This document shows positions 635 to 18,207 of a stretch of 64,000 nucleotides of DNA, one piece after another. The stretch spans positions 1 to 64,000 of the forward strand of contig JANDJE010000009.1 in NCBI GenBank assembly GCA_024331095.1, given 5' to 3'. The DNA is from Nitrospira sp. Its GTDB lineage: Bacteria > Nitrospirota > Nitrospiria > Nitrospirales > Nitrospiraceae. The notes beneath the pieces were generated by a model. The model did not search any database. It saw nothing but the letters and a program-made list of their open reading frames with translations, and was not told where the DNA came from. How positions within the stretch are numbered: position 1 is the first letter of the stretch; each line of letters starts with the position of its first letter. The translations under genes and the position numbers were made by a program.

Positions 635-682
635 GCATCACCTTTCATTTACTTCCGCAGAAAAATCGCCTATGGTACCGGC

Positions 683-2467: not shown

Positions 2468-2480
2468 CCGCGCCGATCCC

Positions 2481-2520
2481 TTCAGGATCTCGATCCTGAA
2501 AACATGAGGCTTCGTCGTTA
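2481..2520. other. Hairpins between convergent genes
   Basis: The gap between the converging GH15 and zinc-ribbon genes holds a perfect 9-base inverted repeat (TTCAGGATC / GATCCTGAA, 2481-2489 and 2492-2500). A 7-base repeat (TTCGTCG / CGACGAA) follows about 12 bases later. Neither has a clear T-run, so these are at best weak or Rho-assisted terminators. Confidence 0.35.
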
Positions 2521-2579
2521 CGCGACGAACGGCAGGAGCCGCAGGGTACGCATGAGAAGGAACTCCGCACGCGAGCCGA

Positions 2580-3125
2580 TTACTCCTTCCCTTTTGGCCG
2601 TGTTTTTTTATCCGGCCCTTGCCATGTCACCCGCGCCAGAACGTCTTGATGCGCCCAACGGGTGGTTACCCGACCTTTGTAGGCCTTGACCATTTCTCGT
2701 CCCAGCCGTTGCGCCAGTCGATCGCTCGTGGTCTGCACTTCCAAATCATGCCCCGCTCTTATGATTTTCATCACACGCTCGAGCGGGTTGACGGAAAGAG
2801 CTCGCTCCTCCACGTTGGCGATCAAGTTTCTGATTTCGGCTTCATGCTCTCGGAGGGCCGACCATTTCAGCGTCACGATGCCTTCCGGATAGTCGTCCCG
2901 GATTTTCTGGCAAGCAGGGCAGAGCACCGTGCGAGTGGATCGGGATGTCCACAACTCACCGGCCTCGACGCGATCAAGATACCACCGTTTGTTGGCGTAG
3001 ATGGCATGGCATGAGCGGCAGACCACGGTTCCTTTTGGCGCCTTCAGCATCGCATAGGGGTCCTGCTTGGGATGCGGTCTTTCTTTGTACGAGATCGTGT
3101 AGGGCTTTCCTTTTCGAGTGCTCAT
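2580..3125 (-). CDS. BCAM0308-like zinc-ribbon protein
   Basis: A 181-residue protein that resembles the BCAM0308 family, uncharacterised proteins named after a Burkholderia cenocepacia gene. It has two CxxC pairs (CRSCHAIY near residue 36 and CPACQKIRDD near 69), which should make one zinc ribbon. The second half is alpha/beta (VEERALSVNPLERVMK and DLEVQTTSDRLAQRLGREM) and recalls the fold of the NMD3 zinc-ribbon region. N- and C-termini are Lys/Arg-rich, which would suit nucleic-acid binding. No catalytic motif is seen and the function is unknown. The ATG at 3125 has an AGGAAG upstream. The gene stands alone, convergent with GH15. Confidence 0.75.
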   Translation of the reverse strand: MSTRKGKPYTISYKERPHPKQDPYAMLKAPKGTVVCRSCHAIYANKRWYLDRVEAGELWTSRSTRTVLCPACQKIRDDYPEGIVTLKWSALREHEAEIRNLIANVEERALSVNPLERVMKIIRAGHDLEVQTTSDRLAQRLGREMVKAYKGRVTTRWAHQDVLARVTWQGPDKKTRPKGKE

Positions 3126-3602
3126 GGGGAGTTTTCTTCCTTTCTTTTTCTCCTCATCGGACGGGAGGCGTCACTTGCCTGACGAAAGAACGCTCGGCAA
3201 GCTTTATGCCGTGGAACAAGTGAATTCCTTGCTCCATCGCCCTTCGTTTTTGCTCACAGATAAAAAGAACGATGAAACTCCGCCCGAATCGCTCAAGGCA
3301 AAAGACCACAGGCCCGCTCATAGAACTGTTGCAGGATGCTACAAAGACGAATGCGCCGATCGAGAGCCGGAGACTCATAACAGCCTCGATGATCGACCTG
3401 GTTATGAGCGCCCCCCTGCGCGTCGCCGGGCATCAAACATTTGCTCTGCGCATCTCATGATGCAATGACTTCATCAGAAGTCATGTCGGAACCACGATGG
3501 GGCCGACGTTGGCAAGAATGCCTTTGTGATAATATGGAACATGGATCGATCGTCGCACAGCGTGGTAAGCCTCATGTCTCACTATCACCAAGGCGTCGCG
3601 GC
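3126..3602. other. Intergenic region with no supported gene
   Basis: About 475 bases separate the divergent zinc-ribbon and protease genes. Short open frames exist on both strands (for example 3378-3154 minus), but they lack a good ribosome site, recognisable domains and the local codon style. Both upstream regulatory regions must lie here. I see no clean -35/-10 pair and no stable repeat. If the protease starts at an earlier in-frame codon (3483 or 3534), the 3' end of this region is coding. Confidence 0.5.
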
Positions 3603-4718
3603 ATGACGTTGACCGTCGCCGGGCTGAAGGTTCGGCTTGGATTCAGTTGGACTCTTCTGACCCTGTTCCTGATTTGGTCGCTGGCCCAGAGCTACTTCCC
3701 AACCTCCTATTTGGGATTGGAGAATCGGACATATTGGTGGATGGCGCTCATCGGCGCCGCGGGTTTCTTGGGCTCGCTTCTCTTTCATGAATGGGCTCAT
3801 GCCGCGGTTGCACGGCGCCGTCAATTTCCCGCCGCCGCCTCGACACTTTTCCTCTTTGGAGGAGTCGCCGACACGAACACGGAGCCGCCGCCCCCCCAAA
3901 CAGAATATGCGATCGCTCTCGCGGGCCCTATCGCAAGTTTCGGCCTTGGCGCCGTATGGTACGTGGCTTTTGAAGTCGGCTATCGCGCCAACTTCCCTCT
4001 GGCGGTCTTGGGAGTATTCGGTTTTTTGGCCTTCGCGAACACTCTCCTTGGGGGAGTCAATCTTATCCCCGCTTTCCCTCTTGACGGGGGATGGCTTCTC
4101 AGGGCCTGGCTGCGGCGCCGCAACAACGATCTCCGGCAAGCCACCCGCCTCGCCTGTTCGGCCGGTTCACTGTGCGGTTTCGTGTTCATGATGACGGGAT
4201 TCGTTCAAGTCATTACCGGCCATCTCCTGGCCGGAGCCTGGTGGTTCGTCCTCGGGTTTTTTCTTCGAGAAACGGCCGGCGCTTCCTATTACCGGATGGT
4301 GACCCAGACGACGTTGGCAAGCATGGCGATTCGACGCATCATGACGCCCGATCCCGTCACCGTTTCATCCGACACATCCGTTCAACAATTGGTCGAAGAC
4401 TATTTCCATCGGTCCTTTCACAATATGTATCCCGTGATGGAGGATACCCGTCTGATCGGCTGCGTTGGCCCCAAACAAATCTCCGCGGTTCCTCGTGATC
4501 GATGGGCGGAACTGACGGCCCGTGATCTCACGATTCCCTGCTCCAAAGACAACACCATCGACGTCGACAGCGACACGGAAGCGGCTTTGTCTTTGATGAA
4601 CAAAACAGGCAACAGCCGTCTGCTCGTCGTGGACGGCGGTCGGTTGGCCGGCATCGTGACGCTGAAAGACCTCTCACAATTTCTGACGCTGAAATTGAAC
4701 GTCAAACCGGTATCCTGA
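3603..4718 (+). CDS. Site-2 protease family (M50) metalloprotease with CBS domains
   Basis: An intramembrane zinc protease of about 371 residues from the ATG at 3603. This start places the first membrane segment (LGFSWTLLTLFLIWSLAQ) at the N-terminus, as is usual in this subfamily; the frame is open from 3441, so a longer form is possible. The zinc site HEWAH is at about residues 62-66 and the third ligand lies in NLIPAFPLDGGWLLRAW (Asp161). About four more hydrophobic segments follow. A pair of CBS domains, which often bind adenine nucleotides, begins at IMTPDPVTV (about residue 246) and reaches the C-terminus. Relatives cleave membrane-bound regulators or act in sporulation or envelope stress. 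The substrate here is unknown; no sigma or anti-sigma gene is adjacent. Confidence 0.88.
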   Translation: MTLTVAGLKVRLGFSWTLLTLFLIWSLAQSYFPTSYLGLENRTYWWMALIGAAGFLGSLLFHEWAHAAVARRRQFPAAASTLFLFGGVADTNTEPPPPQTEYAIALAGPIASFGLGAVWYVAFEVGYRANFPLAVLGVFGFLAFANTLLGGVNLIPAFPLDGGWLLRAWLRRRNNDLRQATRLACSAGSLCGFVFMMTGFVQVITGHLLAGAWWFVLGFFLRETAGASYYRMVTQTTLASMAIRRIMTPDPVTVSSDTSVQQLVEDYFHRSFHNMYPVMEDTRLIGCVGPKQISAVPRDRWAELTARDLTIPCSKDNTIDVDSDTEAALSLMNKTGNSRLLVVDGGRLAGIVTLKDLSQFLTLKLNVKPVS

Positions 4719-4907
4719 CGGAACCGGCATTGTCTGGAATCTCCGTTGCGTCATTGCCCGAGTTTGTCGCGGCTCGATTGCGTCACAAGCCGATCGTGAT
4801 TGCATCCGCCCCAAATACCACATGGAAGTTCGCGACGATAGGCTCTGACTCATCCCACACGATGCTCGCCCCCGATCCCTTTGGAACATCGACGGATGCT
4901 CTGTCTT
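4719..4907. other. Intergenic, convergent 3' ends, nothing recognised
   Basis: This 189-base stretch follows the protease stop and the 3' end of a minus-strand small gene. I see no hairpin with a T-run and no supported frame. Confidence 0.4.
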
Positions 4908-5207
4908 TCATTCCTTTGGATAATGAAAGAGCTTCGCGAACACAGCGCCAAACACCGCGGAAGGACCAAACCCAGCCAGACCGGAAGAAGAGATAAGGCG
5001 ATACGAATACAGCCTAACCTCCGCCCACGCCCACACCGTACTTTCCTGTTCAGCCGTACACGACTGGAGCAGCAACAGCATACCGAAAAAAAGAGCAAAG
5101 ATACCGGGCCAGATCATCAAGAGCGCACCCAGAGCCAGGACTAACACCATCGATTTCAATACCCACCGGACAATCCAAAGCCTGTTTCGAATCGTGAGAT
5201 ATGTCAT
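4908..5207 (-). CDS. Small hypothetical membrane protein
   Basis: A 99-residue frame whose first half is strongly hydrophobic: about residues 10-45 could form two closely spaced membrane helices (WVLKSMVLVLALGALLMIWP and then GIFALFFGMLLLL). A good ribosome site (AGGAGAG) sits about nine bases before the ATG at 5207, which is the main reason to believe it. The second half is less regular and resembles no family I know. It lies alone on the minus strand between the protease and the MscS channel. It may be a local ORFan; confidence is moderate because the length is modest. Confidence 0.5.
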   Translation of the reverse strand: MTYLTIRNRLWIVRWVLKSMVLVLALGALLMIWPGIFALFFGMLLLLQSCTAEQESTVWAWAEVRLYSYRLISSSGLAGFGPSAVFGAVFAKLFHYPKE

Positions 5208-5648
5208 TTTGCCGCTCTCTCCTCATTCTTCTTGTGTGAGAGCCCGTCTGTGCACAAATTTCAAGGGGGTACGCTGACACGTTCTCCCCCCAAAGACATC
5301 TAGGGAATATACTAAAAAATGACGGAATGCTTACCAGTTGAACATTTTCCGGAACGTCCTTCGATTTTCATTCCGGCACTGTTCGGTCACACAGGTACTC
5401 TGTGAACATGAACGACAGATTGATTAACAGAAGCTACCATCGTTTGCGATCAGGAATTCGACCGACTCGGGGCGAATCGGTTCGGTAGAGCCAGAGCAAC
5501 ACAAATCCGTCAAGCAAGAGTGGCGTACGGCATAAGGCTATGGCACAATCGGAAAAGACCGCTCAAACAAAAGGAGCACAGAATTCTTGTGCTGAACAAC
5601 AACGGACGACGATCTCTTCAAAGGAGTCCGTGCGTTCGCCGCCTGTAC
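5208..5648. other. Intergenic region upstream of the MscS-type gene
   Basis: About 440 bases with no supported gene. It is AT-richer than its surroundings. A TATACT near 5308 could be a -10 element on the plus strand, but no good -35 sits 16-18 bases upstream and no frame follows it. The reading frame of the channel gene is open from 5520, so the end of this region could be coding if a start before 5649 is used. Confidence 0.4.
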
Positions 5649-7676
5649 ATGACCTGGTACGTCATTGCGCTTGTCTTGACATTAACCGCGCCGACCGGAG
5701 CCGATCAGCCGTCTCTCGGTTCGAACGCTCCGGTACGATTCAAGGGAGAAACTCTCTTCGTCATTCATACCGGACTGGCTGATATCGATCCCGCCACCAG
5801 AGCCGCTGCCATCGAGAAACGGCTTGAGCGGCTTGCCCATGTGGCCCCTTCAATAATCGATAGTCTTACGATCGAGGATCATGAGGAAACTTCTTATGTC
5901 GTCACTCGCGAAGAAGTGCTCTTCGTCGTCACCGAGCAAGAGGCGAAATTAGTCGGAACACCGCGTTATTTGCTCGCCCAGGAACGGGCGGAGCTTATCC
6001 AACGGGCGTTTCGGACGATTGCACTCCCTCCCGTAGAAACCGAGCCCCCGCCGCCTGCATCGATTCATCTGAGGGATCTGTTATGGGCCGGCCTGGCGAC
6101 GGCACTCCTTATTTTCCTCGCCGTGGCAGCACACGTCGGATTTCCTTTGCTCTATGAGTTCATCGATACCTGGCATGAAACACGCCTGCGCCCTCTTTCG
6201 TTTCGAGGGTTTGAATTGATCTCCGCCGACCATTTGGTGGACACGCTTTTATTCTTGAGCAGATGTGTTCGGATTGTGCTCTCCGCATTCGTCCTTTATG
6301 CCTACTTTCACTTTATTTTGGACCTCTTTCCCCAAACCCGCGATTTCGAACAGAGGTTTCTGACGGCCCTCGCCGTTCCCTTTGACAGCGTGCGTGGCAT
6401 GCACCCCAATTGGGCCGGCCTGATCGCCGGCTTACTGCTGACCGTAGTTACGACGGGATTATTTCTGGGAATTTTGAAACTCTTTCGTTCCCTCTTTCCT
6501 CAAGTAATCGAAAAAGTTTCACAATGGGGTCGCACCACTCGATACTGCCTCAAAATCCAACGAGTGGAGCTCTTGTCCGGAACGCAGATCGCGGACGGCG
6601 CCTTGGGCGCCGTCCGCATCTTGCGCGTCGTGGCGTATGCTTCGTTGGTTTATCTCTACGTTACATCGATCCTTGGATTCTTCCCCGCCACTCAGCAATT
6701 GTCTCTCGAACTGTTGGGGTATCTCATTGAACCGCTCAAATTGATCGGTCTGACGTTCGTTTCCTCCCTTCCTGATTTTATCGCGATCGTCATCATCGCT
6801 CTTGTCGCCAAATACATCATCAAACTGATTCATTTGTTCTTCACGGGAATCGAGCGAGGAGCCATCACCTTTCAAGGGTTTCACCGCGATTGGGCCACGC
6901 CCACGTACAAGATCGTTCGGTTCTTCGCACTCGTCTTCGCGGCCGTGGCCATCGTTCCGTACATTCCCGGCTCCCATTCGGAAGCGTTCAAGGGCATTTC
7001 GGTTTTTCTTGGCGTGTTGGTGTCATTGGGGGCCGCCGGATCGTTCAGCAACATCGTGGCCGGCATCGTATTGACGTACATGCGGCCGTTCAGCGTCGGA
7101 GATCGAGTCAAGATCGCTGAAACGACGGGCGATATCACCGAAAAAACTCTTCTGGTGACGAGGGTTCGAACCAATAAGAACGTGGACGTGACCATTCCCA
7201 ACGCGTTGGTCCTGAGCTCCCATATCATCAATTTCAGCTCGTCGGCCACGAACCCGCCTCCGCTTATTCTGAACACCAGCGTAACGATCGGGTACGACGT
7301 TCCATGGAGGAAAGTCCACGAATTGCTTCTTACGGCTGCCAAACGTACGACGCACATTCTGGAGACGCCGGAGCCGTTCGTTTTGCAAACGAGTCTTAAT
7401 GATTTTTACGTCACGTACGAGATCAATGGATACACCAAACACCCCAACAAGATGGCGACCATCTACGCCGAGCTTCATCAGCACATCCAGGACCAGTTCA
7501 ACGAAGCAGGTGTGGAAATCATGTCACCTCACTACACCCAGGTGCGCGACGGCAACAAAACGACAATCCCTGATGAATACTTGCCAAAAGACTACCAGGT
7601 TCCCGGCATCCGCATTTGGCCGCTGCGCTCGTCTCGCGTGCGCTCAGAGTCTCCATCTCCCGACGGAGACCGCTGA
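5649..7676 (+). CDS. MscS-family mechanosensitive ion channel, large form
   Basis: From the ATG at 5649 the product is about 675 residues, much longer than E. coli MscS (286). It opens with a likely signal peptide (MTWYVIALVLTLTAPTGA) and a periplasmic domain of about 130 residues. Several membrane segments follow from about residue 145 onward. The MscS core is clear: the pore helix region GSFSNIVAGIVLTYMRPFSVGDRV near residues 463-485 is rich in Gly/Ala, followed by the beta domain (VTIPNALVLSSHIINFS) and the cytosolic alpha/beta vestibule. Such channels release solutes on hypo-osmotic shock. An AAGGAG lies about 20 bases before this ATG, rather far, and the frame is open from 5520, so the start is uncertain. 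No operon partner is evident. Confidence 0.88.
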   Translation: MTWYVIALVLTLTAPTGADQPSLGSNAPVRFKGETLFVIHTGLADIDPATRAAAIEKRLERLAHVAPSIIDSLTIEDHEETSYVVTREEVLFVVTEQEAKLVGTPRYLLAQERAELIQRAFRTIALPPVETEPPPPASIHLRDLLWAGLATALLIFLAVAAHVGFPLLYEFIDTWHETRLRPLSFRGFELISADHLVDTLLFLSRCVRIVLSAFVLYAYFHFILDLFPQTRDFEQRFLTALAVPFDSVRGMHPNWAGLIAGLLLTVVTTGLFLGILKLFRSLFPQVIEKVSQWGRTTRYCLKIQRVELLSGTQIADGALGAVRILRVVAYASLVYLYVTSILGFFPATQQLSLELLGYLIEPLKLIGLTFVSSLPDFIAIVIIALVAKYIIKLIHLFFTGIERGAITFQGFHRDWATPTYKIVRFFALVFAAVAIVPYIPGSHSEAFKGISVFLGVLVSLGAAGSFSNIVAGIVLTYMRPFSVGDRVKIAETTGDITEKTLLVTRVRTNKNVDVTIPNALVLSSHIINFSSSATNPPPLILNTSVTIGYDVPWRKVHELLLTAAKRTTHILETPEPFVLQTSLNDFYVTYEINGYTKHPNKMATIYAELHQHIQDQFNEAGVEIMSPHYTQVRDGNKTTIPDEYLPKDYQVPGIRIWPLRSSRVRSESPSPDGDR

Positions 7677-7930
7677 CCGTGAACGTGTTTATCCGTGTTT
7701 TTTCACGCCGGACCGACAGGGTTTTCACACGGGAGAGACGGCGAGTCCGAGTCCGAACGCTCAAAAACCGCGAGCACCCAAGCTTCTTTATCCATGAACG
7801 TTTTTTCACTCCAGTCCCGGCTCGATGATCTCTCATCGGCGAAACCGTTATGGATAGACCTCCCAAAAACGCGTTTTTATGTTTCCCTACCTTGACTCAC
7901 GCGGATCAACCACGTTAATTTCCAAGCCGT

Positions 7931-8006
7931 GGCGGTGTAGCTCAGTTGGCAGAGCAGCGGACTCATAAGCCGCGGGTCGGGGGTTCGATCCCCTCCACCG
8001 CCACCA
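7931..8006 (+). tRNA. tRNA with CAT anticodon (tRNA-Met, elongator type; tRNA-Ile2 not excluded)
   Basis: A 76-base cloverleaf with acceptor stem GGCGGTG / CACCGCC, discriminator A and an encoded CCA end. The D arm carries GTAGCTCAGTTGGCAGAGCA and the T arm GGGGGTTCGATCCCC. The anticodon loop is CTCATAA. G1-C72 pairing shows it is not an initiator tRNA, which usually has a 1-72 mismatch. A CAT tRNA of this kind is either elongator Met or the Ile2 species whose wobble C becomes lysidine; the sequence alone does not decide. Genes on either side are unrelated. Confidence 0.95.
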
Positions 8007-8085
8007 CGTTGATGCCGCCTTCTTTCTCGGTTTTTCATCGTTTGACTGACAAATCGCATCTGCCCAAGCCGATACGGCGCGTGTC

Positions 8086-8454
8086 TTAGTGCCCCATGAT
8101 GCCCTTCATCTCGTTTTTCATGCCTTTCATCTCATCTCCCATACCTTTGACGTCGCCCTTGATCTCCTCACCGGCTTCTTTCATCACATGTCCCTTGTGT
8201 TTCATCTCGTCGGCCTTATCCTTCGCGTCCGCTTTCATCTCTTCTTTCTTGCCGGTCATCTCTGCGCGAGCTTTGTCTTTCTGACCAAGCACGCCGGAAG
8301 TCATTTGGTCTTTCTTGCCCATGACATCAGCCCTCACCGCTTCTTTCTCGCTCCGAACATCGGCTTTGATCTTACCGATCTCATCCGCATCGGCAGACAG
8401 GTTCATTCCTACCAAACACGCAAACGCCAAGGTGATGGACCTAAGTTTGCTCAT
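8086..8454 (-). CDS. Exported Lys/Met/Glu-rich helical protein, hypothetical
   Basis: A 122-residue protein with a signal peptide (MSKLRSITLAFACLVGMNLS, cleavage near ADA) and a highly charged mature part made of repeating K-x-E-M/D-K units such as GKKEEMKADAKDKADEMK and MGDEMKGMKNEMKG. It should be almost fully helical, periplasmic and soluble. GGAGGT lies a few bases before the ATG at 8454. Low-complexity proteins like this often accompany envelope-stress or desiccation responses, but no family is recognised and that role is only a guess. It reads away from the ZorAB-like pair's 3' end with a plus-strand gene in between. Confidence 0.65.
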   Translation of the reverse strand: MSKLRSITLAFACLVGMNLSADADEIGKIKADVRSEKEAVRADVMGKKDQMTSGVLGQKDKARAEMTGKKEEMKADAKDKADEMKHKGHVMKEAGEEIKGDVKGMGDEMKGMKNEMKGIMGH

Positions 8455-8605
8455 GACGACACCTCCGGGAGGTTAAAGTTAAAATAACGGACGGTACAAC
8501 ATTTCACGCCCGTTCCCGCTTTCACGGAAACCGATACGGCAGATCCGCGTGCCATGAAGTCGGCCGCAATCGACGAGACGGGCTCAAGAGTTATATCATG
8601 GGTCG

Positions 8606-8791
8606 ATGGGACTCCGATGGAAAATCCTGATCGGACTCGGGGTGAGTCTCATTTCATTAGGTCTGATCGGTAACTGGCCTGCGGAGAGTGATCCGACACT
8701 TCCGGACACCCGGTCGTTTTTCTTGTTCTTGGGAGGAATCGTGGCAATCGCCGGATTGCTGATCGCGATCCGACAGGGAGAAGATACCTAG
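8606..8791 (+). CDS. Small two-helix membrane protein, hypothetical
   Basis: A 61-residue frame with two membrane helices (ILIGLGVSLISLGLIGNWP near the N-terminus and FFLFLGGIVAIAGLLIAI near the C-terminus) joined by a polar loop ESDPTLPDTRS. The pattern of two helices with a short charged tail is typical of real small membrane proteins. The ribosome site is poor. It is divergent from the exported protein at 8086-8454 and convergent with the ZorB-like gene, so no operon supports a role. Confidence 0.5.
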   Translation: MGLRWKILIGLGVSLISLGLIGNWPAESDPTLPDTRSFFLFLGGIVAIAGLLIAIRQGEDT

Positions 8792-8828
8792 AAATTGTCA
8801 CGCCGCCGGCCGACGCCTCGGGACAGAG

Positions 8829-9482
8829 TCACCCCCTGGCGGCTGATCGGAAATACAGTTTGAACACCACGCGCCTGCTTCTCTCTCGGTCGGGAAACCC
8901 TAAAGCGTTCCGAAGAAGCTCGTGGCTCCCTCTTCCGTTCGCCGACACCTTCCGTTGAAAGCAGTCATAGGTCCACGGTGCACGGTCTCGAATCGCCAAG
9001 AGGCTTTTTGACAGTACGGCAAATGAACGTTCTTGGCTCAACTTCAGGTTCCCGATATCGTCCCCCCGGTCGTCGGTGTGGCCTTCGATCACAAACGTCT
9101 CCACCTCATCACCGAGCGGTCCGCAAAGAACGGCCGCATAGCGAGGCATCGCTTCTGTTAAGAACGCCTCGGCCGCCGGAGAAAGTGCGCTCTTGCCGAA
9201 CGCAAAGTTCAGGACATTGTCCGGCACCGCCACCCTGAGCAGTAACGGATCATCCGCCCGCTCGATCGTAAGACCGTCGGCCTCCATCTCCCGACGAAGC
9301 ACGTCAACGGCGGAAGTCGTGGGCGCCGGCGGCGATGGATTGTCTCCAGTCCCCGTGACACTCTGGGCCGCCAGCAACAACATACACACCACGGCAAGCG
9401 ACGTCATGAGATCGGTCGTCCCAGCCGCAGTTGAGAAGCTTCCCTCTTCGGAATCATGCGGCCCGAGCGATTGATGTTTCAT
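8829..9482 (-). CDS. zorB: ZorB-like OmpA/MotB-type motor protein
   Basis: A 217-residue protein with the ZorB/MotB plan: a short cytosolic N-terminus, one membrane helix starting with Asp (TTDLMTSLAVVCMLLLAAQ, Asp24) and a C-terminal OmpA-like peptidoglycan-binding domain from about residue 88. The helix Asp matches the proton-carrying Asp of MotB and of ZorB (Asp26 in E. coli). The OmpA domain shows FAFGKSALSPAAEAFL, IEGHTDDRGDDIGNLKLSQE and RRVVFKL, the usual order. AAGGAAGG precedes the ATG at 9482. It follows the ZorA-like gene by 30 bases, so they are surely co-transcribed. In Zorya systems ZorAB is a membrane motor that senses phage and needs ZorC/D or ZorE; none is adjacent here. A stator of another motor is the alternative, but the pairing and ZorA-like features favour Zorya kinship. 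Confidence 0.75.
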   Translation of the reverse strand: MKHQSLGPHDSEEGSFSTAAGTTDLMTSLAVVCMLLLAAQSVTGTGDNPSPPAPTTSAVDVLRREMEADGLTIERADDPLLLRVAVPDNVLNFAFGKSALSPAAEAFLTEAMPRYAAVLCGPLGDEVETFVIEGHTDDRGDDIGNLKLSQERSFAVLSKSLLAIRDRAPWTYDCFQRKVSANGRGSHELLRNALGFPDRERSRRVVFKLYFRSAARG

Positions 9483-9512
9483 GTCCTTCCTTGTCTTCCT
9501 CCGCCACGGCGC

Positions 9513-10757
9513 CTACGGCCACAGGCGAGACAACCGCCATCCAGCCCTCTGAACCTCTGAGGTAGCCGAAGGTGCAGCCTTCCTTCTCTGTCGATCGCCG
9601 AGCCGCTCGATCAAACGGTTGACATCGCGGGCGGACAACGCATCGGGCTGCCGCAGCGACTCAAGAGACCGGCGCAGTTCGTCAACGGCGACACAGACGG
9701 GATTCGTGATTCGGGCGAGCGCGTCCCGTACTTCTTCACCGATCGTCGACGCTAAGCGTTCCCGTTGAACCAGCAGATCTTCTTTTCTCAATAAAGCGAG
9801 GCTCTTGGAAATCTCCTGCAGAACCTCGACCGCCTCGTCCATCCGCTGATGGACGGCCTTGATCCCTTGAAGCACCGTACGATCCGCACCGACGTTCTCA
9901 TACTCGCCGACGCCCGTTGAAGCCGACGCGCGGGCGAGCGCGCCATGGTCGCGAACCTTCTGCGGAAACATCTCGTCGAGAAGCGCGACGATTCGGCAAT
10001 GACGATCGGCCAGTCCGTGCCAACCCGATTTTTCCATCAGGAGAAAGACGTTGGCGCACGCGAGGCCAATGATCGAGGTCACAAATTTTCCGGCCAGACC
10101 GTTGATGAATCCGGGAAGTCCTTCGATCTGAGTTCCATTTGCGTGCAGTTTGCCGAGCCCGATCAGAATGGCCAGAAAGGTGAACAACAAGCCAATCCCC
10201 GTCAGAAAAGACGGAAAGTGTCGGTAGAACTGATGGTTCACATGGCGTGTGCAGGCCGCCTCAAACGAAAAACATTCCGCCGCCGATTTATCGGCATACA
10301 CGGTCGGCTCCAGAAACCAGGACGATTGTTCGATCGAAAGACTTCTGCGGAAAACCAGCCAGTCTCGCGCATAGGTCGGCTCTCCGCCCATGATCCGATC
10401 CAAGGCCATGAGATCATCGAGATCTCGCTGCTCCACCGGCTCCTTCACCCTGTTTGCCCGTTTCCTCGCTTCATCGGGGAACACGACCCACTCCGGAGCG
10501 GCTTGCCGTCTTCTTTGAGCAAGCAGCACAAGTTGCGGCTCGATCCGCTCCGTCACCGTGCGCAGCCTCCGGATGCCTCGCAGGAAACATCCGCCGTGCC
10601 AGAGGAAAAGAACCATGATCCCCACGGCTCCAATGCAGCTCGCCAACGGGATTTGAAATCCGTCAAGAAGGGGCACATCGCGCGTCACCCAGGTCCACAC
10701 GTCATTGACGGTCGGTAGGAAGTTCATGCTCGCGCGCCCTCTCACGGATTCAACCAT
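9513..10757 (-). CDS. zorA: ZorA-like MotA/TolQ/ExbB proton-channel protein, short tail
   Basis: About 414 residues from the ATG at 10757 (an ATG at 10727 is also possible; neither has a strong ribosome site). Three membrane helices are visible: about residues 35-57 (IPLASCIGAVGIMVLFLWHG), 182-204 (FPSFLTGIGLLFTFLAILIG) and 230-248 (FVTSIIGLACANVFLL), with a large cytosolic loop of about 120 residues between the first two. This is the MotA/TolQ/ExbB arrangement, and the FLTGIGLLFTFLAILIGL and GKFVTSIIGLACAN signatures resemble ZorA. After the last helix only about 165 residues remain, partly coiled coil (MDEAVEVLQEISKSLALLRK), while E. coli ZorA has a tail of several hundred. The pair with the ZorB-like gene lacks known Zorya effectors. 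Anti-phage function is inference. Confidence 0.72.
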   Translation of the reverse strand: MVESVRGRASMNFLPTVNDVWTWVTRDVPLLDGFQIPLASCIGAVGIMVLFLWHGGCFLRGIRRLRTVTERIEPQLVLLAQRRRQAAPEWVVFPDEARKRANRVKEPVEQRDLDDLMALDRIMGGEPTYARDWLVFRRSLSIEQSSWFLEPTVYADKSAAECFSFEAACTRHVNHQFYRHFPSFLTGIGLLFTFLAILIGLGKLHANGTQIEGLPGFINGLAGKFVTSIIGLACANVFLLMEKSGWHGLADRHCRIVALLDEMFPQKVRDHGALARASASTGVGEYENVGADRTVLQGIKAVHQRMDEAVEVLQEISKSLALLRKEDLLVQRERLASTIGEEVRDALARITNPVCVAVDELRRSLESLRQPDALSARDVNRLIERLGDRQRRKAAPSATSEVQRAGWRLSRLWP

Positions 10758-10938
10758 GAACGATGCTTTCAAGATTCACGCCGCGCGATTTATCGTTCCG
10801 TCATGAACTTGAGAAGCCTTCGCGAGAAAAGAGATCCCCATGAGTAGGCATTTGTGTCCAGGCCAGGTAAATTTTTCCTAACAATGGAGAGATCAGGAAA
10901 GGAATATCGCCGGTTGGTCAGAATAAGATGCGGGGGTT

Positions 10939-11208
10939 TTACTCTTTCAGCAAGAGACGGTTTGCCTCCGCAATCGCCTTGAGAAGAGCAGTCCGCTCCT
11001 TCTGATTGTGCCTCAAAGTCGGCACGCTGTCCGCAAATCGTTTCGCGGCTTGACTCAAGGCTTGCAACGTATCAGCCAGGGGATCGCCCCCCGATGAGGG
11101 ATCACGTTCGGCATCTTGGAATAGCTTATGACGTCTTCTCGGTCCCACATAAAGTTGTGGTGCAACCGGGTTGTCCTTTTCCAATTCAGGTCGTCTGAAG
11201 ATTCCCAT
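10939..11208 (-). CDS. Small hypothetical protein (89 aa) upstream of the ZorA-like gene
   Basis: A GGAG six to seven bases before the ATG at 11208 marks this start; the frame is open further upstream but that part is low in character. The product is charged and soluble: an Arg/Lys-rich N-terminus (MGIFRRPELEKDNPVAP, GPRRRHKLF) and a helical C-terminal half (LQALSQAAKRFADSV, KAIAEANRLLLKE). No family is recognised. It is on the same strand as the ZorAB-like pair, 180 bases upstream of it, and could be part of the same unit. Confidence 0.55.
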   Translation of the reverse strand: MGIFRRPELEKDNPVAPQLYVGPRRRHKLFQDAERDPSSGGDPLADTLQALSQAAKRFADSVPTLRHNQKERTALLKAIAEANRLLLKE

Positions 11209-11393
11209 TGTTTTCTCCCACAACGACGCTTCACGCTGCTCCGTACCACGTGGCATGAGCCGACCGATTCTCCCACCTCCAGGAGGGGGAGAGTTTGAAT
11301 GGAGACCATACTCGCTCTCCCCGTCCCGACGCTGTCTCGTTTCTGTGCTGGATCGCGCACCTCCCTCTTGTCCGGGGAAGAAACGGGAACCCC

Positions 11394-11723
11394 CTAGTGA
11401 TACCGGACGATCAATCGTCCTCTTTTTCTTCGCCCAACAAGAGAAAGCCGCACAGGAACCCACTCTTCCTCTCTCACCGGCACGGCCAACATGATCATCG
11501 AAAGTCTCTGGTACATTTTCTCCAATTCCCGGCACCGTTTGACAAAACGACCGGAGGAGAGTTTCGGGAAATAGCCGCGGTATTTCTCATAAAACCGCGC
11601 CCGCTCTTTCCACCGCTCCGCATAACATCTGAGCAGCCAAGCGGCCGACTCCCATAGACGAAAGGGCTCCCGTTTTATCGTCTGAAGCCTTGTGGTCGGC
11701 GGAGCCATGATCATGTCTTTCAT
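11394..11723 (-). CDS. Small hypothetical basic protein (109 aa)
   Basis: An excellent ribosome site (AAGGAGGAG, seven bases upstream) supports the ATG at 11723. The product is rich in Arg and aromatic residues (RLWESAAWLLRCYAERWKER, YEKYRGYFPKL) with a predicted helical middle and no membrane segment or signal peptide. No family is recognised. It precedes the 89-aa gene on the same strand with a 185-base gap, so the two and the ZorAB-like pair might form one transcription unit. A nucleic-acid or membrane-surface role would fit the charge but is not shown. Confidence 0.6.
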   Translation of the reverse strand: MKDMIMAPPTTRLQTIKREPFRLWESAAWLLRCYAERWKERARFYEKYRGYFPKLSSGRFVKRCRELEKMYQRLSMIMLAVPVREEEWVPVRLSLVGRRKRGRLIVRYH

Positions 11724-11899
11724 GTTCTCTCCTCCTTTGTTGATCCCCGTGCCGTGGGATTAAACATCGTTTCTTGCCCGCACCGCCACTATAATTGCGT
11801 ATCATGAGAACGGCATTAGTCCAACATGAAAACCATCTCATGAAGACAACGTCCATAAATGGAATGAAAAATCCCGTCACCTTCGATCAACCGCGACTT

Positions 11900-14518
11900 T
11901 TATTCCTCTCGCAATCCTTCCACAATCGACTGTCTCGCCGCCCAGCGTGAAGGGAAGTAGCCTGCCATCAATGTGGCTGCGGCGGCCAATCCGACCGCTT
12001 GCAGGATCCCGCCAAGCGGGACGATCATGTGGATCGTCCAGCCGAAGGATTGCTTGTTGATGACCTCGATCAGCAACACGGCGAGCGCTCCTCCGCCCAC
12101 CAACCCTAGTCCTATCCCTATTAAGCCCAGGTACGTCGCCTCCCATAAGACCAACTGTCCTATTTGCCTTTCGCCGGCTCCGATGGCCCTGAGCGTGGCG
12201 AACTCCCTTCGACGTTCCAGCACCGACGTCACCAGGGTGTTGACGATACCGAGCATGGCGATCACGACCGCAATCGCTTCAAGCACGTAGGTCAAAAGAA
12301 ACGTCCGGTCGAAAATCTCCAGCACTTCCTTGCGAAGTTCGGCGTTGCTGATCAGCAGCGGAGGGAGACGTCCGCCGACCTCGCTCAATCGAGCCGCCAT
12401 GCGTTCTCGGACCAGGTCAAGATCGGCTCCTTGGTCCAGATACACGGGAAACACAGTGACGAGGTCGTCTTGCCACAACGATTGATAGAGCCGGCGATCC
12501 ATGAGGACTTTTCCTCCGTCGGTTGCATAGTCATAGAACACGGCGACGACGGGAAACCGTCTGGCTCCTTGTGGCGTGACCAGCTCAAGACTGTCGCCTT
12601 CTCGGATCCCAAGCTGATCGGCCAAGATTTCGGAAACCAGCACGCCGTCGGTATCCGCCGCGCGGACGAGCCGGTCGGCGGAATCACCGTGACGGACCCA
12701 ATATCGGCTCATCCGGGCATGCATCCGCAAGTCGCGCGACACGATCGCAGCCCGCCTCCCCTGCACGGTCACGCGAACATCTCGATACGTATCGACCCCC
12801 GCGACGCCGGGAATCGACGACAAGATCTCCGACCAGAATCCCGGCAAACTCCTTCCCGTGCTGCCGGCTTCCGTCCCACGCAGCCAGAGCGACGGCGCGA
12901 CGATCACGTCCGCCATGACAGTCTCCGACACCCAGACTTCCACCGTGTTTCTGAAGCTTTTAATCATGACCAGCACGCCGATCATGATGGACAGCCCGAC
13001 CATCAAGGCGGAGATGCTCACCCCGTTGCGGCCGGGATTGCGCGACGCATGATCGATCGCGATCGCCCGCATGACTCCCCCCATCGTCGATTGAAGCCCG
13101 GGCTGCCGGAGTCCACGGCGCCAACCGGTCACGCAAACGGGGGCCATGCACGACAGACCGGCCAGTAAGCAAAGCGTTGCGGCGTACCCCGGCACGGGAA
13201 CTCCATCGATGGGATCGGCCGTGCTCAACACTCCCGCGACGACGAGCAGGATAAATCCGCCCATGCCCAACACACCGACTCGCAGTCGCTGTCCCGCCTC
13301 GTAATCACCGGGCGCCAAGGCCCGCACGGGAGCCGTCCGAGCCGCGTTCATGCTCGGTCCGACCGAACCGATCATGGAGACGGTGCAGCCGACGAGAATC
13401 CCTTCCGCAGCCAACCGCCAGAGCCAATCGGACTCCAGGGCAAGACCGTTCCCGACTCCCACGGGAACGTACAAATCCGAGATCGTTCGACTCAGCAGTC
13501 TCACCAATTCTCTGGCCAGAAGAAACCCCGCCGCGCTTCCAATCAAACCACCGGTCAACCCCAACACGGCGGCTTCGGATAAAAACAAACCGGCCACCCT
13601 CGCTTGCGTCATCCCGATCGCACGATAGATTCCGATCTCACGCCGCCGTTGCGCAACCGCAAAGGCCATCGTGTTATAGATCAGAAACATGCCGATCAAC
13701 AGACCGACCCAGCTCAGCACCGTGACGTTCAGGCGAAAGGCCCGCATCATGTGATCGACCTGCGCGGTGCGACTCGACGGACGCTCGACCGTCACGGTCG
13801 GCGGAACGATCGCGCGCACCGCTTGCGCGATCTCTTCGACGTCACGATCCTTCTCCGTGACGAGATCGATCCGATCCAACCGCCCGATCATGCCGAACGT
13901 CACCTGTGCCGCCGCAATATCCATGACAGCAAGACGACTCCACAGAGCCGTCCGATCCGTCGCGTCTTCAAGCAGCCCGACGATCCTGCAGGTCGTCAAG
14001 CCGGGCCCCACCTGAAGATCGATCGTCTCGCCTACGGAGACCCCCCATTCAGAAGCCAATCCCTTCCCCAATAAAATGGTGTTCGGATCAAGCATGGCCT
14101 CCAACCGGCGATCCGCCGATTGTCGGCTCAGATGAAAGCCTCGCGATTCAACTTCCGCAAGAAGATCCAAACCAAGCACCTGGACGGCTTCTTGACGATC
14201 ACCGCGCGTGATCACTGCCGTTTGCAGAATGACCGGAGCGCTTGAGCGAACGCCCGGCACGTGTCGGATCGCCGTGATGACTCGTTCGTCAAGCCCAAGC
14301 TCCCCTCCGGAGATTTCCAGAGTTGTGGGCCCCGCCACGGTCAAGACTGCCTGTTCGAACGAGCGCAGGACATCGACGTTGGCCGTCCGCACCGCCACCG
14401 AGGCGGAGACGCCGAGCGCCACGCCGATGACCGTCAATCCCGTGCGAAGGGGTCGTTGAAAGATTTGCGCGGCGAGAATCAACCGCAGCACTTTCAGGAA
14501 GGACACGGCGGCCATCAT
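11900..14518 (-). CDS. FtsX/MacB-type ABC transporter permease, duplicated domain
   Basis: An 872-residue permease with the large YbbP/SalY-type plan: N-terminal helix (RTGLTVIGVALGVSASVAV), an extracytoplasmic domain, a first FtsX domain around residues 270-400 (VLSWVGLLIGMFLIYNTMAF, QRRREIGIYRAIGMTQARV), a middle with extra helices near residues 415-455, a second extracytoplasmic domain and a second FtsX domain at the C-terminus (LERRREFATLRAIGAGERQI). Such permeases work with a LolD/MacB-like ATPase in extracting lipids or lipoproteins or exporting small molecules. The natural partner may be the ATPase gene at 15840-16535, which is on the same strand but separated by pyrD and a plus-strand luxR-type gene. 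Substrate unknown. Confidence 0.87.
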   Translation of the reverse strand: MMAAVSFLKVLRLILAAQIFQRPLRTGLTVIGVALGVSASVAVRTANVDVLRSFEQAVLTVAGPTTLEISGGELGLDERVITAIRHVPGVRSSAPVILQTAVITRGDRQEAVQVLGLDLLAEVESRGFHLSRQSADRRLEAMLDPNTILLGKGLASEWGVSVGETIDLQVGPGLTTCRIVGLLEDATDRTALWSRLAVMDIAAAQVTFGMIGRLDRIDLVTEKDRDVEEIAQAVRAIVPPTVTVERPSSRTAQVDHMMRAFRLNVTVLSWVGLLIGMFLIYNTMAFAVAQRRREIGIYRAIGMTQARVAGLFLSEAAVLGLTGGLIGSAAGFLLARELVRLLSRTISDLYVPVGVGNGLALESDWLWRLAAEGILVGCTVSMIGSVGPSMNAARTAPVRALAPGDYEAGQRLRVGVLGMGGFILLVVAGVLSTADPIDGVPVPGYAATLCLLAGLSCMAPVCVTGWRRGLRQPGLQSTMGGVMRAIAIDHASRNPGRNGVSISALMVGLSIMIGVLVMIKSFRNTVEVWVSETVMADVIVAPSLWLRGTEAGSTGRSLPGFWSEILSSIPGVAGVDTYRDVRVTVQGRRAAIVSRDLRMHARMSRYWVRHGDSADRLVRAADTDGVLVSEILADQLGIREGDSLELVTPQGARRFPVVAVFYDYATDGGKVLMDRRLYQSLWQDDLVTVFPVYLDQGADLDLVRERMAARLSEVGGRLPPLLISNAELRKEVLEIFDRTFLLTYVLEAIAVVIAMLGIVNTLVTSVLERRREFATLRAIGAGERQIGQLVLWEATYLGLIGIGLGLVGGGALAVLLIEVINKQSFGWTIHMIVPLGGILQAVGLAAAATLMAGYFPSRWAARQSIVEGLREE

Positions 14519-14568
14519 TCGGGCAGGATCACGAGACGCTCGGAGAAGCGGGCAAATCGCTCGATTCG

Positions 14569-14597
14569 TTTACACATTTTCGATCCTTTGTTAGACT
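14569..14597 (+). promoter_or_regulatory. Predicted sigma-70 promoter for the LuxR-type gene
   Basis: TTTACA (14569-14574), 17 bases, TAGACT (14592-14597), in the divergent gap before the LuxR-type gene. The -10 overlaps a short palindrome GTTAGACTAAC (14590-14600), which could be an operator. Confidence 0.4.
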
Positions 14598-14628
14598 AAC
14601 TTTGTTCAATTGAAAGGAGTGCACGGAG

Positions 14629-14895
14629 ATGCGAAGCAGAGGCAACACGGCGATTCAGAGTCCGCGAGCGAAACGTTCTCACCGCGCGTCCGGCCGTCTG
14701 ACCCCTCGGCAATCCCAAATCTTGACCATGGTCGCCATGGGCCACACCAACAGAGAAATCGCAGCCGCGCTGGACATCAGCATCCGCACGGTCGAAGTGC
14801 ATCGCTATCACTTGATGCACCGGCTGGAGGTCCGCAACGTCGCCCAACTTCTCCGTCGATCATTGAAATTGGGGCTGTTGCCGCGCCGCTTCTGA
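14629..14895 (+). CDS. LuxR-type single-domain HTH regulator
   Basis: An 88-residue protein that is almost only a LuxR/FixJ HTH domain: LTPRQSQILTMVAMGHTNRE begins near residue 24, followed by IAAALDISIRTVEVHRYHLM with the Thr-Val-Glu-x-His recognition helix and a last helix RRSLKLGL. There is no receiver or ligand domain, as in GerE-like regulators. A GAAAGGAG lies about ten bases before the ATG at 14629 and a promoter-like pair lies upstream. It is divergent from the 872-aa permease and convergent with pyrD. Targets are unknown; the permease gene is the obvious candidate. Confidence 0.85.
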   Translation: MRSRGNTAIQSPRAKRSHRASGRLTPRQSQILTMVAMGHTNREIAAALDISIRTVEVHRYHLMHRLEVRNVAQLLRRSLKLGLLPRRF

Positions 14896-14910
14896 AAATA
14901 AGCCCCAACT

Positions 14911-15840
14911 CTATAACTCCTTGACGGCTCCTCGGAAGTCCTCGATCGAGCGGTATCCTTTCTTGGCCATCAATGCGGCCAACTCGGTCTCGAGCCTGCC
15001 GAACACGTCGAGCCCTTCTTCCACCAACGTCGTTCCGATCTGCACGGCGGACGCTCCGCACAGGATGTGCTCAAAGGCATCTCCGCCGTCCACGACGCCG
15101 CCCGTGCCGATGATGGGAACGGCGCCCTGAAACAATTTGTAAAACGCGCGGACGTTGGCCAGGGCCACGGGCTTGATGATTTTGCCGCCCACTCCCCCGA
15201 ATCCTCCCTTCGGTTTGATGACCACGGTTTCCCGCTCGGGATCGACGACCAACCCGTTGCCCACCGAGTTGATCACGTTGAGAAAATCGACGCCGCTTCG
15301 CGCGATGACCTGTCCCATCGCCTCATGATGCGCCGGATCAAAATACGGCGGAAGTTTCACACCCATGGGAACCGTGATCAGCGCGCGTGTCCGTTTCATG
15401 ACCCGCTCCGAAGCCTCCAGGTCATAACCGATCTGCGGTTTTCCCGGAATATTCGGACAGGACAGGTTCACTTCGATCAAATCCGGTCCCGCGGCATTGA
15501 TCGCATCGGCGATGATCGAAAAATCCTCTTCGCACAGCCCCGCGACGCTCGCGATGACCGGCTTTCCAAATCGTTTGAGATCCGGGATCAATTCCGCGTA
15601 GGCCCGGTAGCCGAGATTGGGAAGCCCCATGGAATTGATGGATCCGCCCGGGAACCCATAATACCGAGGCTCCGGATTGCCCCGCCGCGGCTCGACCGTC
15701 ATCGACTTGGTGACGATGGCGCCGGCACGCGACCGTCCCAACGCCGTCAGATCTTCTCGCGTTACGCACAATGCGCCGGACGCATTCATGAAGCAAGCGG
15801 GAAACTTGACCCCCGCGATCGTCGTGGACAGATCCGTCAT
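14911..15840 (-). CDS. pyrD: Dihydroorotate dehydrogenase, class 1A-like
   Basis: The FMN-dependent enzyme oxidises dihydroorotate to orotate in pyrimidine synthesis. The 309-residue protein lacks a membrane anchor and so is the cytosolic class 1 type. It has the active-site Cys128 in NLSCPNIPGKPQIGYD; class 1 enzymes use Cys as the base and class 2 use Ser. Other motifs are FMNASGALC, NSMGLPNLG, VPMGVKLPPYFD and the FMN-phosphate region PIIGTGGVVDGGDAFEHILC. Class 1A enzymes use fumarate, but 1B cannot be excluded without checking for pyrK, which is absent nearby. The ATG at 15840 overlaps the stop of the ATPase gene by one base (TGATG), implying translational coupling. Confidence 0.87.
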   Translation of the reverse strand: MTDLSTTIAGVKFPACFMNASGALCVTREDLTALGRSRAGAIVTKSMTVEPRRGNPEPRYYGFPGGSINSMGLPNLGYRAYAELIPDLKRFGKPVIASVAGLCEEDFSIIADAINAAGPDLIEVNLSCPNIPGKPQIGYDLEASERVMKRTRALITVPMGVKLPPYFDPAHHEAMGQVIARSGVDFLNVINSVGNGLVVDPERETVVIKPKGGFGGVGGKIIKPVALANVRAFYKLFQGAVPIIGTGGVVDGGDAFEHILCGASAVQIGTTLVEEGLDVFGRLETELAALMAKKGYRSIEDFRGAVKEL

Positions 15841-16535
15841 CACGAAACCGCTTCCTCCACCCGATCGACTCGCGCCACGAGTCGACCGTCCTGCATCGTC
15901 CAAACGTAGTCGGCGGTCTGAGCCGCGTGCCGGCTGTGCGTTACCAGCAGGACCGTTTGGCTCCCCGCCGTCGCCAGTGTTTTCAACAATGTCATGATCG
16001 CGGCGCCCTGATGGGAATCAAGGTTCCCGGTCGGCTCGTCGGCCAGAAGAAGCCGCGGACGATGGGCCAACGCCCTGGCGATCGCCACCCGCTGCTGCTC
16101 TCCGCCGGATAACTCTCCCGGCCGGTGGTTTCGCCTTGGATCCATTCCCACCATCTCCAACATTTCATCCACGCGCTTCATCACGTCGCGCCGTCCCTCC
16201 CCACGCAACAGCAACGGCAGCGCGATATTCTCCTCCGCCGTCAACGCGGGGACCAAATGAAACGCTTGAAACACGATTCCGATGATTTCGCGGCGCAAGG
16301 CCGTCCATTCGGCGCTGCTGAATCCCGCGGTGGATCGCCCGCCGAGAATAATCTCGCCCGACGTCGGCTGGTCCAACCCGGCGACGAGATTCAGCAATGT
16401 GCTTTTGCCGCATCCGCTCGGCCCCACGAACGCGCAAAAGTCGCCTTCTTTTATTTCAAGATCCACCTCGCGCAACGCGGTGACGAGAGTCCCGCCTCGG
16501 ACATAGGTCTTCGACAGTCGTTTAAGAACAACCAT
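15840..16535 (-). CDS. LolD/MacB/YbbA-like ABC transporter ATPase
   Basis: A 231-residue ATPase. Walker [11 protein letters not shown] is at about 38-47, the Q-loop is in [12 protein letters not shown], the signature [14 protein letters not shown] is near residue 140, Walker B is [12 protein letters not shown] and the switch His is in LLVTHS. The FQ-x-FHLVP and [10 protein letters not shown] strings place it in the MacB/LolD/YbbA subfamily that pairs with FtsX-type permeases. The 872-residue permease at 11900-14518 may be its partner though they are not adjacent. The ATG at 16535 gives the usual N-terminus ([14 protein letters not shown]); the frame is open further upstream. Translationally coupled to pyrD. 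Confidence 0.87.
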
Positions 16536-16572
16536 GCACGCCCGCGTCTCCGAGGAGTGAAGCGCCGTCGCT

Positions 16573-16615
16573 CCGGTTCGGCACGAACGGGCAATCGTAT
16601 AACATACCGGTTCGG
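16573..16615. repeat. Direct repeat CCGGTTCGG in the divergent ATPase/comF gap
   Basis: CCGGTTCGG occurs at 16573-16581 and 16607-16615, 34 bases apart. Further bases agree downstream (CACG against AACG). The two copies flank an AT-rich core with TATAAC on the plus strand and a TTATAC-like -10 on the minus strand. They could be operator half-sites for one or both genes. Confidence 0.35.
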
Positions 16616-16652
16616 AACGGCACAACCTTGACAGAACCCATGCTTTCGGCTT

Positions 16653-17501
16653 ATGGACCAGTGTCATCGATTTATCGTCGGAATGATGCCATCGATGGCC
16701 GGTTCGTTCATCGATTCCGTTCGCGGGATAACCAGGCAGGCCGTGCGGTTTCTGTTGCCGGTCGACTGTGCGGCCTGCGGCCTTCCTCTGGCCGATAGTC
16801 CGATTCCTTGCTTCTGTATCGGTTGTTGGAATTCCATTGCTCCCACCGCCTCTTCCCGCTGTGCCCGTTGCGACTACCCGTTTCTCTCGCCGGCCGCGAC
16901 GTCCCATGCGCCCGATCATATGTGCCAATCCTGCAGGAAACGTCCTCCCTCTTATACGAAGGCCTGGACGCTGTATCCTTACCGCTCGCCTCTGCGGGAA
17001 GCTTTACATCTGTTCAAGTACCAAGGAAAGGTCTCGCTGGCCGCTCCTTTGGCCGATCTTATCACCGACCGCCTTCCTCGATTCGAGTCCCTTGACGTCA
17101 TCATTCCGGTCCCCCTCCATATTGAACGACTGCGCGAACGAGAGTTCAATCAATCATTGCTCCTGGCGGATCGGATCGGTCGCCACCTCGGTCTTCCCGT
17201 ATCTTGCACCAATCTGATCCGCCACCGATCTTCTCCGGCACAAATCACGCTGAGGCGGAAAGAACGGCTCAAAAACCTCCGCGGCGCGTTCACCGTCCTA
17301 CACCCTCACGCCGTGGCCGGGAAACGCATCTTGTTGATCGACGACGTCTTCACGACCGGCGCGACGATCAACGAATGTGCCAAGGCGCTCCGCAAGGCCG
17401 GGTCAAGCGACGTGTTCGCCCTCACGCTGGGGCGAACGATGGATGTGAGCCATGTCCCCGATCGGCTGTTTCAACAACGGGATGATCGGCCGTCAAGCTA
17501 A
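16653..17501 (+). CDS. comF: ComF family phosphoribosyltransferase-like protein
   Basis: About 282 residues from the ATG at 16653; internal Met codons at 16683 or 16686 are equally plausible starts. The N-terminal zinc-ribbon region has CAACG, CIGC, CARC and CQSC pairs (about residues 39-94). The C-terminal half is a type I PRTase fold with the PRPP-binding loop ILLIDDVFTTGATINEC near residues 226-242 and the typical HLFKYQGKVSLA and REREFNQS motifs. ComF proteins aid DNA uptake in competent bacteria, and many non-competent species keep them without known role. It is followed closely by the FmdB-type zinc ribbon gene, probably one transcript. Confidence 0.88.
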   Translation: MDQCHRFIVGMMPSMAGSFIDSVRGITRQAVRFLLPVDCAACGLPLADSPIPCFCIGCWNSIAPTASSRCARCDYPFLSPAATSHAPDHMCQSCRKRPPSYTKAWTLYPYRSPLREALHLFKYQGKVSLAAPLADLITDRLPRFESLDVIIPVPLHIERLREREFNQSLLLADRIGRHLGLPVSCTNLIRHRSSPAQITLRRKERLKNLRGAFTVLHPHAVAGKRILLIDDVFTTGATINECAKALRKAGSSDVFALTLGRTMDVSHVPDRLFQQRDDRPSS

Positions 17502-17520
17502 CGAAGAGGAGAATGCACCT

Positions 17521-17877
17521 ATGCCGATTTACGAATACGTGTGTCGAAGTTGCAAGAAACGGAGCTCGCTGTTGGTGTTGAATTATCGCAACCGGCTCTC
17601 GGCTTCCTGCCGCCATTGCGGTGGTCTTGAGTTGGACCGTGTCATGTCGCGGTTCGCCGCGCCAAAATCCGAGGAAGCTCGGATGGAGTCTCTGGCTGAG
17701 TCCGCCGATCTCGATGGACTGGACGAACAGGATCCGCGAAGCATGGCCCGTTTCATGCACAAGATGAAACGTGAAATGGGCGAAGACTTCGGCGACGACC
17801 TGGACATAGACGCCATGATGGAGCAAGAAAGCCCTATGGAACAAACCGGAGAATCGGGCGATAGTGACAGCGAATGA
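17521..17877 (+). CDS. FmdB-family zinc ribbon protein
   Basis: A 118-residue protein. It begins with the FmdB signature MPIYEYVCRSCKK and a second pair CRHCGG, forming a zinc ribbon in the first 40 residues. The rest is acidic and low-complexity (SLAESADLDGLDEQDP, MMEQESPMEQTGESGDSDSE). A purine-rich GAAGAGGAG before the ATG at 17521 fixes the start. FmdB was first seen as a regulator in formamidase operons; most members are uncharacterised. The gene lies 19 bases after comF. Confidence 0.85.
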   Translation: MPIYEYVCRSCKKRSSLLVLNYRNRLSASCRHCGGLELDRVMSRFAAPKSEEARMESLAESADLDGLDEQDPRSMARFMHKMKREMGEDFGDDLDIDAMMEQESPMEQTGESGDSDSE

Positions 17878-17884
17878 CAGCCAT

Positions 17885-17928
17885 TGTCACACATTTTCCT
17901 TGACAATCTCCGCATGTGGCCGGACAAT
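17885..17928 (+). promoter_or_regulatory. Predicted sigma-70 promoter with inverted repeat at the -35
   Basis: TTGACA (17900-17905), 17 bases, GACAAT (17923-17928), upstream of the HTH-mraZ genes. The -35 is the right half of an inverted repeat TTGTCA-N11-TGACAA that begins near 17885, so a repressor could bind there. Whether the HTH protein or MraZ does so is not shown. Confidence 0.5.
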
Positions 17929-17990
17929 GCGCTTCATTGCCATGATGCGCGTGAAAAGGCTTCTTCGCGAACACAGACCGTGGTGGCGGG

Positions 17991-18188: not shown

Positions 18189-18207
18189 GCTGACGAGGCC
18201 GGGCGCC

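Follow-up and report, generated by a model that had tools for sequence, protein, structure and literature searches.

A 64,000-nucleotide stretch of DNA from Nitrospira sp. (assembly GCA_024331095.1, contig JANDJE010000009.1), called the window here, carries two adjacent minus-strand genes whose products resemble ZorA and ZorB, the motor subunits of the anti-phage system Zorya. With moderate confidence, this pair is considered a stand-alone ZorAB-type motor, predicted to be ion-driven and anchored in peptidoglycan, which would serve the cell envelope without a Zorya effector. The motor and wall-grip residues are kept, the ZorA tail is short, and the Zorya nuclease genes do not adjoin the pair, which together suggests an envelope motor whose rod would act on another cytoplasmic partner. 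Nitrospirales, the order to which the window belongs, include nitrite-oxidising and comammox bacteria. The source assembly has a size of 2.6 Mb and is 80 percent complete, and the closest named relatives at the pair locus are Nitrospira metagenome-assembled genomes.

Hidden Markov models (HMMs), searches against solved structures and predicted folds all placed the pair nearest to ZorA and ZorB, not to TolQR/ExbBD or flagellar MotAB, in agreement with the kinship that had been proposed from the sequence alone (the original prediction). The PADLOC models ZorA1 and ZorB1 matched at 5.1e-14 and 7e-31, respectively. Against five close orthologues, the ratio of nonsynonymous to synonymous substitution (dN/dS) was 0.05-0.13 in the ZorA core and 0.19-0.35 in the first part of ZorA, and 0.08-0.24 in the N-terminal part and 0.16-0.25 in the OmpA domain of ZorB; constraint was not seen in the 35-residue ZorB linker (0.60-3.83). 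The E-values, together with the dN/dS of the ZorA core and the ZorB OmpA domain, exclude chance as the origin of the pair. The curated NCBIfam cut-offs were missed, with 31.3 bits against 100 for the best ZorA model and 32.1 against 400 for the best ZorB model, and by membership the pair is not a Zorya system.

Type I Zorya (E. coli 8qyd, Shewanella 8vvn) shares with the pair the ZorA fold including its stranded cytoplasmic part, the equivalents of ZorA T183 and S218, the ZorB Asp24, the OmpA-type peptidoglycan-binding domain and the gene order A then B. A strand feature in the cytoplasmic part is given as typical of Zorya-type proteins in the legend of Fig. 4 of PMC12505986. As in Zorya, ZorA of the window joins a MotA/ExbB-type core to a Zorya-type cytoplasmic domain, and ZorB joins a transmembrane Asp to a peptidoglycan-binding domain. 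The nearest relatives of the pair in the tree are full type I Zorya loci of Nitrospirota (L093, L094, L138, and L140). Over the matched part, ZorA and ZorB of L093 and L094 share 35-38 percent identity with the pair; unlike the pair, all four loci have a full-length ZorA of 609-703 aa, and zorB, zorC, and zorD come after it. Type II Zorya (Sulfuricurvum 8vvi) differs from the pair in a ZorA that is shorter at the N-terminus and longer in the tail, and its motor works with ZorE (PMC11890865).

The original prediction had described a three-helix MotA/TolQ-like protein beside a MotB/OmpA-like protein with a transmembrane Asp24. Both reading frames are present, and the predicted ZorA model contains long helices at residues 28-76, 165-197, and 203-253, followed by tail helices at 279-316, 322-358, and 366-384. 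ZorA T183 and S218 do not vary in any of the 47 short rows, nor in the 16 type I and 3 type II rows compared. Asp24 of ZorB lies inside a predicted N-terminal helix (residues 19-42) and is invariant in 44 of 44 rows, as are six residues of the OmpA-type domain listed in the table; H135 is replaced by Tyr in 17 of these rows. When mapped by motif and spacing, ZorB H135, T136, D137, L148, R152, and R203 would correspond to H186, T187, D188, L199, R203, and R254 of type I ZorB, which are tied to peptidoglycan binding (PMC11890865), and K208 may correspond, by spacing, to R259.

The ZorA tail is the clearest departure from Zorya. Short ZorA rows have 152-229 residues past E232 (median 177, 47 rows), and the window protein has 172, whereas type I Zorya has 404-618 (median 467, 16 rows) and type II has 277-320 (3 rows). 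The short tail pointed out in the original prediction is thus borne out, being below that of every Zorya compared. In solved proteins, the long cytoplasmic tail of ZorA spans residues 236-696 in type I and 100-378 in type II (PMC11890865); a tail of this length was not found in the window ZorA. Two of the three predicted tail helices are amphipathic, since only 14 of 2000 and 0 of 2000 shuffles, respectively, were equally periodic; for the third this is not clear (133 of 2000). For this reason, the tail likely forms a short helical rod.

Effectors of Zorya were sought in 175 genomes of the window's family, Nitrospiraceae, many of which are incomplete, so that the lack of a match does not prove a gene absent. 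The ZorC domain (EH signature) was found in five genomes at six places, all of them full Zorya loci, and no ZorC match was obtained in the other 170. Neither zorC nor zorD stands beside the window pair. Three genomes hold both the short pair and full type I Zorya, namely G100 (L094), G124 with two full loci (L096 and L148), and G159 (L095), indicating that the two can coexist. ZorD-model matches above 580 bits were confined to the five ZorC genomes, and matches elsewhere were partial and lower. ZorD-like fragments, mostly C-terminal, also occur in two genomes without a ZorC match (G077:C124:186258-187445 and G104:C161:11701-13234) and are perhaps remains of Zorya. The ZorE model matched short pieces of 20-30 bits in 92 of the 175 genomes. 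With one of several ZorE models, no match was obtained anywhere in the 80 percent complete assembly of the window, and therefore none beside the pair. PF11828 (ZorF) had no match in the 175 genomes, the control genomes being equally silent.

A ZorA match was obtained in 124 of the 175 family genomes and in 83 of the 114 good ones. By our count from the match table, the short form is present in 121, and the remaining three hold a full-size ZorA only (G131 and G055) or a fragment (G078). A ZorB-like protein occurs in 128 genomes, as a rule just downstream of ZorA; the exceptions are a few genomes with one gene or split contigs (for example, ZorB only in G036 and G138, and a split in G041). The pair is nearly always single copy, in a family where the type I marker ZorC is confined to five genomes. 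In the phylum sample, 94 of 395 genomes had ZorA matches. In this sample, short forms were confined to one order, where their occurrences beyond the family were seven genomes of one sister family. Outside this order, four ZorA matches were found, all full-size (open frames of 639-706 aa): in two, zorB, zorC, and zorD come next; in the third, zorB comes next and the contig breaks off within zorC; and the fourth contig stops before any zorC could have been reached.

The surroundings of the pair were compared at 46 loci, 41 with the short pair and 5 with full Zorya. The ZorA cluster was present at all 46, and the next commonest neighbour clusters at no more than 19. ZorB follows ZorA at all 41 short-pair loci; the gene caller had missed it in L074, L076, and L085, where it was recovered by other searches (L074; G020, G011). 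The short pair lies in six kinds of surroundings (13, 8, 6, 5, 5, and 4 loci), and no third gene is common to the 41 loci. These neighbourhoods are conserved within clades and consist of ordinary genes. A Pfam scan of 20 of the about 40 listed neighbour clusters identified FtsX, MscS-type, RsmA-like, PdxA, GGDEF response regulator, PTPS, FGE-sulfatase-like, DEAD-box helicase, MltC-like transglycosylase, T2SSE ATPase, HflX-like GTPase, PAS histidine kinase, and DUF748 proteins, with 4 of the 20 unmatched. In our reading, no Zorya-like or other dedicated defence gene is apparent among these 20 clusters. PADLOC found no Zorya gene besides the pair among ten open reading frames (ORFs) of the window (positions 8-18648), seven of which had no match at all. 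The other three, an FtsX-type permease, an ABC ATPase (1.5e-33), and a ComF-like protein (3.8e-16), matched models of other systems, which we read as due to domains shared with ordinary proteins. The claim that no Zorya effector lies nearby is upheld by both surveys.

A tree of 48 rows was built from the ZorA core and ZorB and rooted on type II. All 30 short rows group as a single clade (100/99) that falls within type I Zorya beside the Nitrospirota Zorya loci, and type I Zorya is not one clade in this best tree but surrounds the pair. Effector loss from type I Zorya is the better direction suggested by these sequences, although it is not firmly shown. An RpoB tree of 26 genomes agrees largely with the pair tree within clades, but not at depth.

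Several observations weigh against the stand-alone envelope motor and its derivation from type I Zorya. The approximately unbiased (AU) test did not reject type I Zorya as a clade apart from the pair, with p 0.064 for ZorA and ZorB together and 0.38 for ZorA only. A warning about meeting long branches also came from the tree program, and the pair could thus predate Zorya. The pair data reject one clade for the rows of family f1 (p 0.0039) and of genus g1 (p 0.0142). This conflict with RpoB points to transfer of the two genes together from one lineage to another, or else to duplication and loss, and movement between lineages also fits a defence gene. ZorA matches are absent from 31 of the 114 good genomes, and the pair is therefore probably dispensable. 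A DEAD-box helicase is present in one neighbourhood type (L078 and its clade). In addition, the ZorA tail evolves faster (dN/dS 0.23-0.60), and the ZorA model, a single chain, is of modest quality, with a predicted local distance difference test score (pLDDT) of 71 and a predicted template modelling score (pTM) of 0.49.

A reduced phage-defence system, in which the motor would detect peptidoglycan damaged by phage and bring in a new effector, encoded in trans and common to Nitrospirales, is judged unlikely. Such a system would agree with the Zorya sensor features kept in the pair, with type I Zorya as the nearest relatives outside the short clade, and with the movement between lineages. However, the pair is nearly always single copy, its neighbourhoods are clade-conserved and ordinary, and deletion of the ZorA tail or loss of any Zorya component abolished phage protection (PMC11890865), which argues against defence by the pair alone. 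Nearly all family genomes gave no ZorC match, strong ZorD matches stay with ZorC, and the ZorE pieces are short and absent from the window's own genome. For the reasons of copy number, family-wide presence, ordinary neighbours and the published need for the tail and other genes, the minimal defence motor raised in the original prediction is disfavoured, and the rarity of ZorC speaks against the trans-encoded effector raised with it. The other role it named, such as envelope sensing, fits better than defence and is offered here as a candidate rather than a proven function. More doubtful than a reduced defence system is an ancient stand-alone motor ancestral to type I Zorya, to which Zorya added a longer tail, zorC, and zorD. 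The AU tests that do not firmly reject it are opposed by the topology of the best tree, by a weak rejection with ZorB alone (p 0.037, without L153 and L154), and by the restriction of the short form to one order, whereas Zorya itself occurs across many genera (PMC11890865).

A divergent stator of the TolQR/ExbBD or flagellar type is disfavoured and considered very improbable. These motors belong to the same ion-driven 5:2 superfamily, and weaker fold matches to ExbB and MotA were obtained; a better match to TolQ/ExbB or MotA was looked for, and both scored worse than ZorA. PF01618 has no match at the pair locus and four in the same genome, all on other contigs. From their ORFs rather than a family search, these four are read as a MotA/MotB-like pair beside a CheY-like gene and three ExbB/TolQ-like genes with ExbD/TolR-like partners, and are likely the genome's copies of these motors. 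TonB, TolA, and flagellar genes were not seen among the neighbours scanned, so neither the TonB/TolA partner of ExbBD/TolQR nor the flagellar linkage of MotAB was found. That the pair is a decaying remnant of a lost Zorya system is equally hard to credit: the effectors are missing and the tail is shortened, but the ion-path residues are invariant (47 ZorA and 44 ZorB rows), dN/dS is below 1 outside the ZorB linker, an internal stop occurs in only four short-form matches, and the frames are open in most relatives.

For the stand-alone envelope motor, the following mechanism is proposed. By analogy with solved relatives, two ZorB helices would be ringed by five ZorA subunits, with the ZorB OmpA-type domains gripping peptidoglycan. 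Ions would pass ZorB Asp24 along the ring of ZorA T183 and S218, and ZorA would turn against the wall-held ZorB. A short helical rod, where Zorya has a long one, would pass the movement to a cytoplasmic partner that is likely not ZorC and would be encoded elsewhere. Cell-wall strain or damage may be the trigger, as proposed for Zorya. The pair probably arose from a type I Zorya motor, with zorC, zorD, and most of the ZorA tail being lost in Nitrospirales, after which it would have been kept as a chromosomal two-gene unit.

The published account of Zorya is of cellular machinery that was adapted into a defence motor (PMC11890865), and the short-pair family is a candidate for the reverse path, from defence motor to resident cell machinery. 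Tentatively, a rotary motor born in anti-phage defence may have been taken over by the whole order Nitrospirales, which shortened its rod, dropped its effectors and made it an envelope machine with a new cytoplasmic partner. An envelope motor of this order, likely ion-driven and so far unstudied, is suggested by the pair. Natural short-tailed ZorAB motors also provide a means to ask what the ZorA tail does, and ZorAB matches in Nitrospira genomes should not count as Zorya defence.

Table 1. Positions in the window of the ZorAB-like pair and its parts.
Feature	Position	Strand	Remarks
ZorA-like motor subunit	9513-10727	minus	404 aa; HMM, structure searches, predicted fold
ZorA core helices, model residues 164-261	9945-10238	minus	include ion-path T183 and S218
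Shortened ZorA tail region, residues 279-404	9516-9893	minus	helices 279-316 and 322-358 predicted amphipathic, 366-384 weaker
ZorB-like subunit	8829-9482	minus	217 aa; short N-terminus, one predicted transmembrane helix with Asp24, OmpA-type peptidoglycan-binding domain
Codon of ZorB Asp24	9411-9413	minus	ion-carrying aspartate of the family
ZorB OmpA-type domain, residues 81-217	8832-9242	minus	T136, D137, L148, R152, R203, R204 invariant in 44/44 rows

The ZorB-like gene lies downstream of the ZorA-like gene across a gap of 30 bases. The maximal ZorA-like ORF is 9513..10772, with 419 aa from TTG, and the extent to 10757 given in the original prediction does coincide with an in-frame ATG. 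The likeliest start is nevertheless the ATG that follows, at 10727, given the length of 404-407 aa in the closest relatives.

Some genes around the pair deserve mention. Near its 3' end in the window, a 122-aa ORF (8086-8454, minus strand) has a signal-like start and repeated Lys/Glu/Met/Asp-rich segments. In L074 and in L078 and L079, the pair lies near the same genes (T2SSE and its neighbours), and despite these surroundings ZorA is 41 percent identical to the window ZorA in L074 and 29 percent in L078, as if the pair had been replaced at one site. A long protein of one cluster is encoded just upstream of the pair, in diverging orientation, in L143, L146, and L147 of the sister family and in L086 and L087 of genus g17; the pairs of these two groups cluster together in the pair tree, against RpoB. 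In L087, Pfam classifies this protein as a PAS histidine kinase; the other copies were assigned by BLAST only. In one clade, L078, L089, and L090 carry another one-cluster protein upstream of the pair. Pfam identifies the copy in L090 as an MltC-like lytic transglycosylase, which may hint at a link to peptidoglycan.
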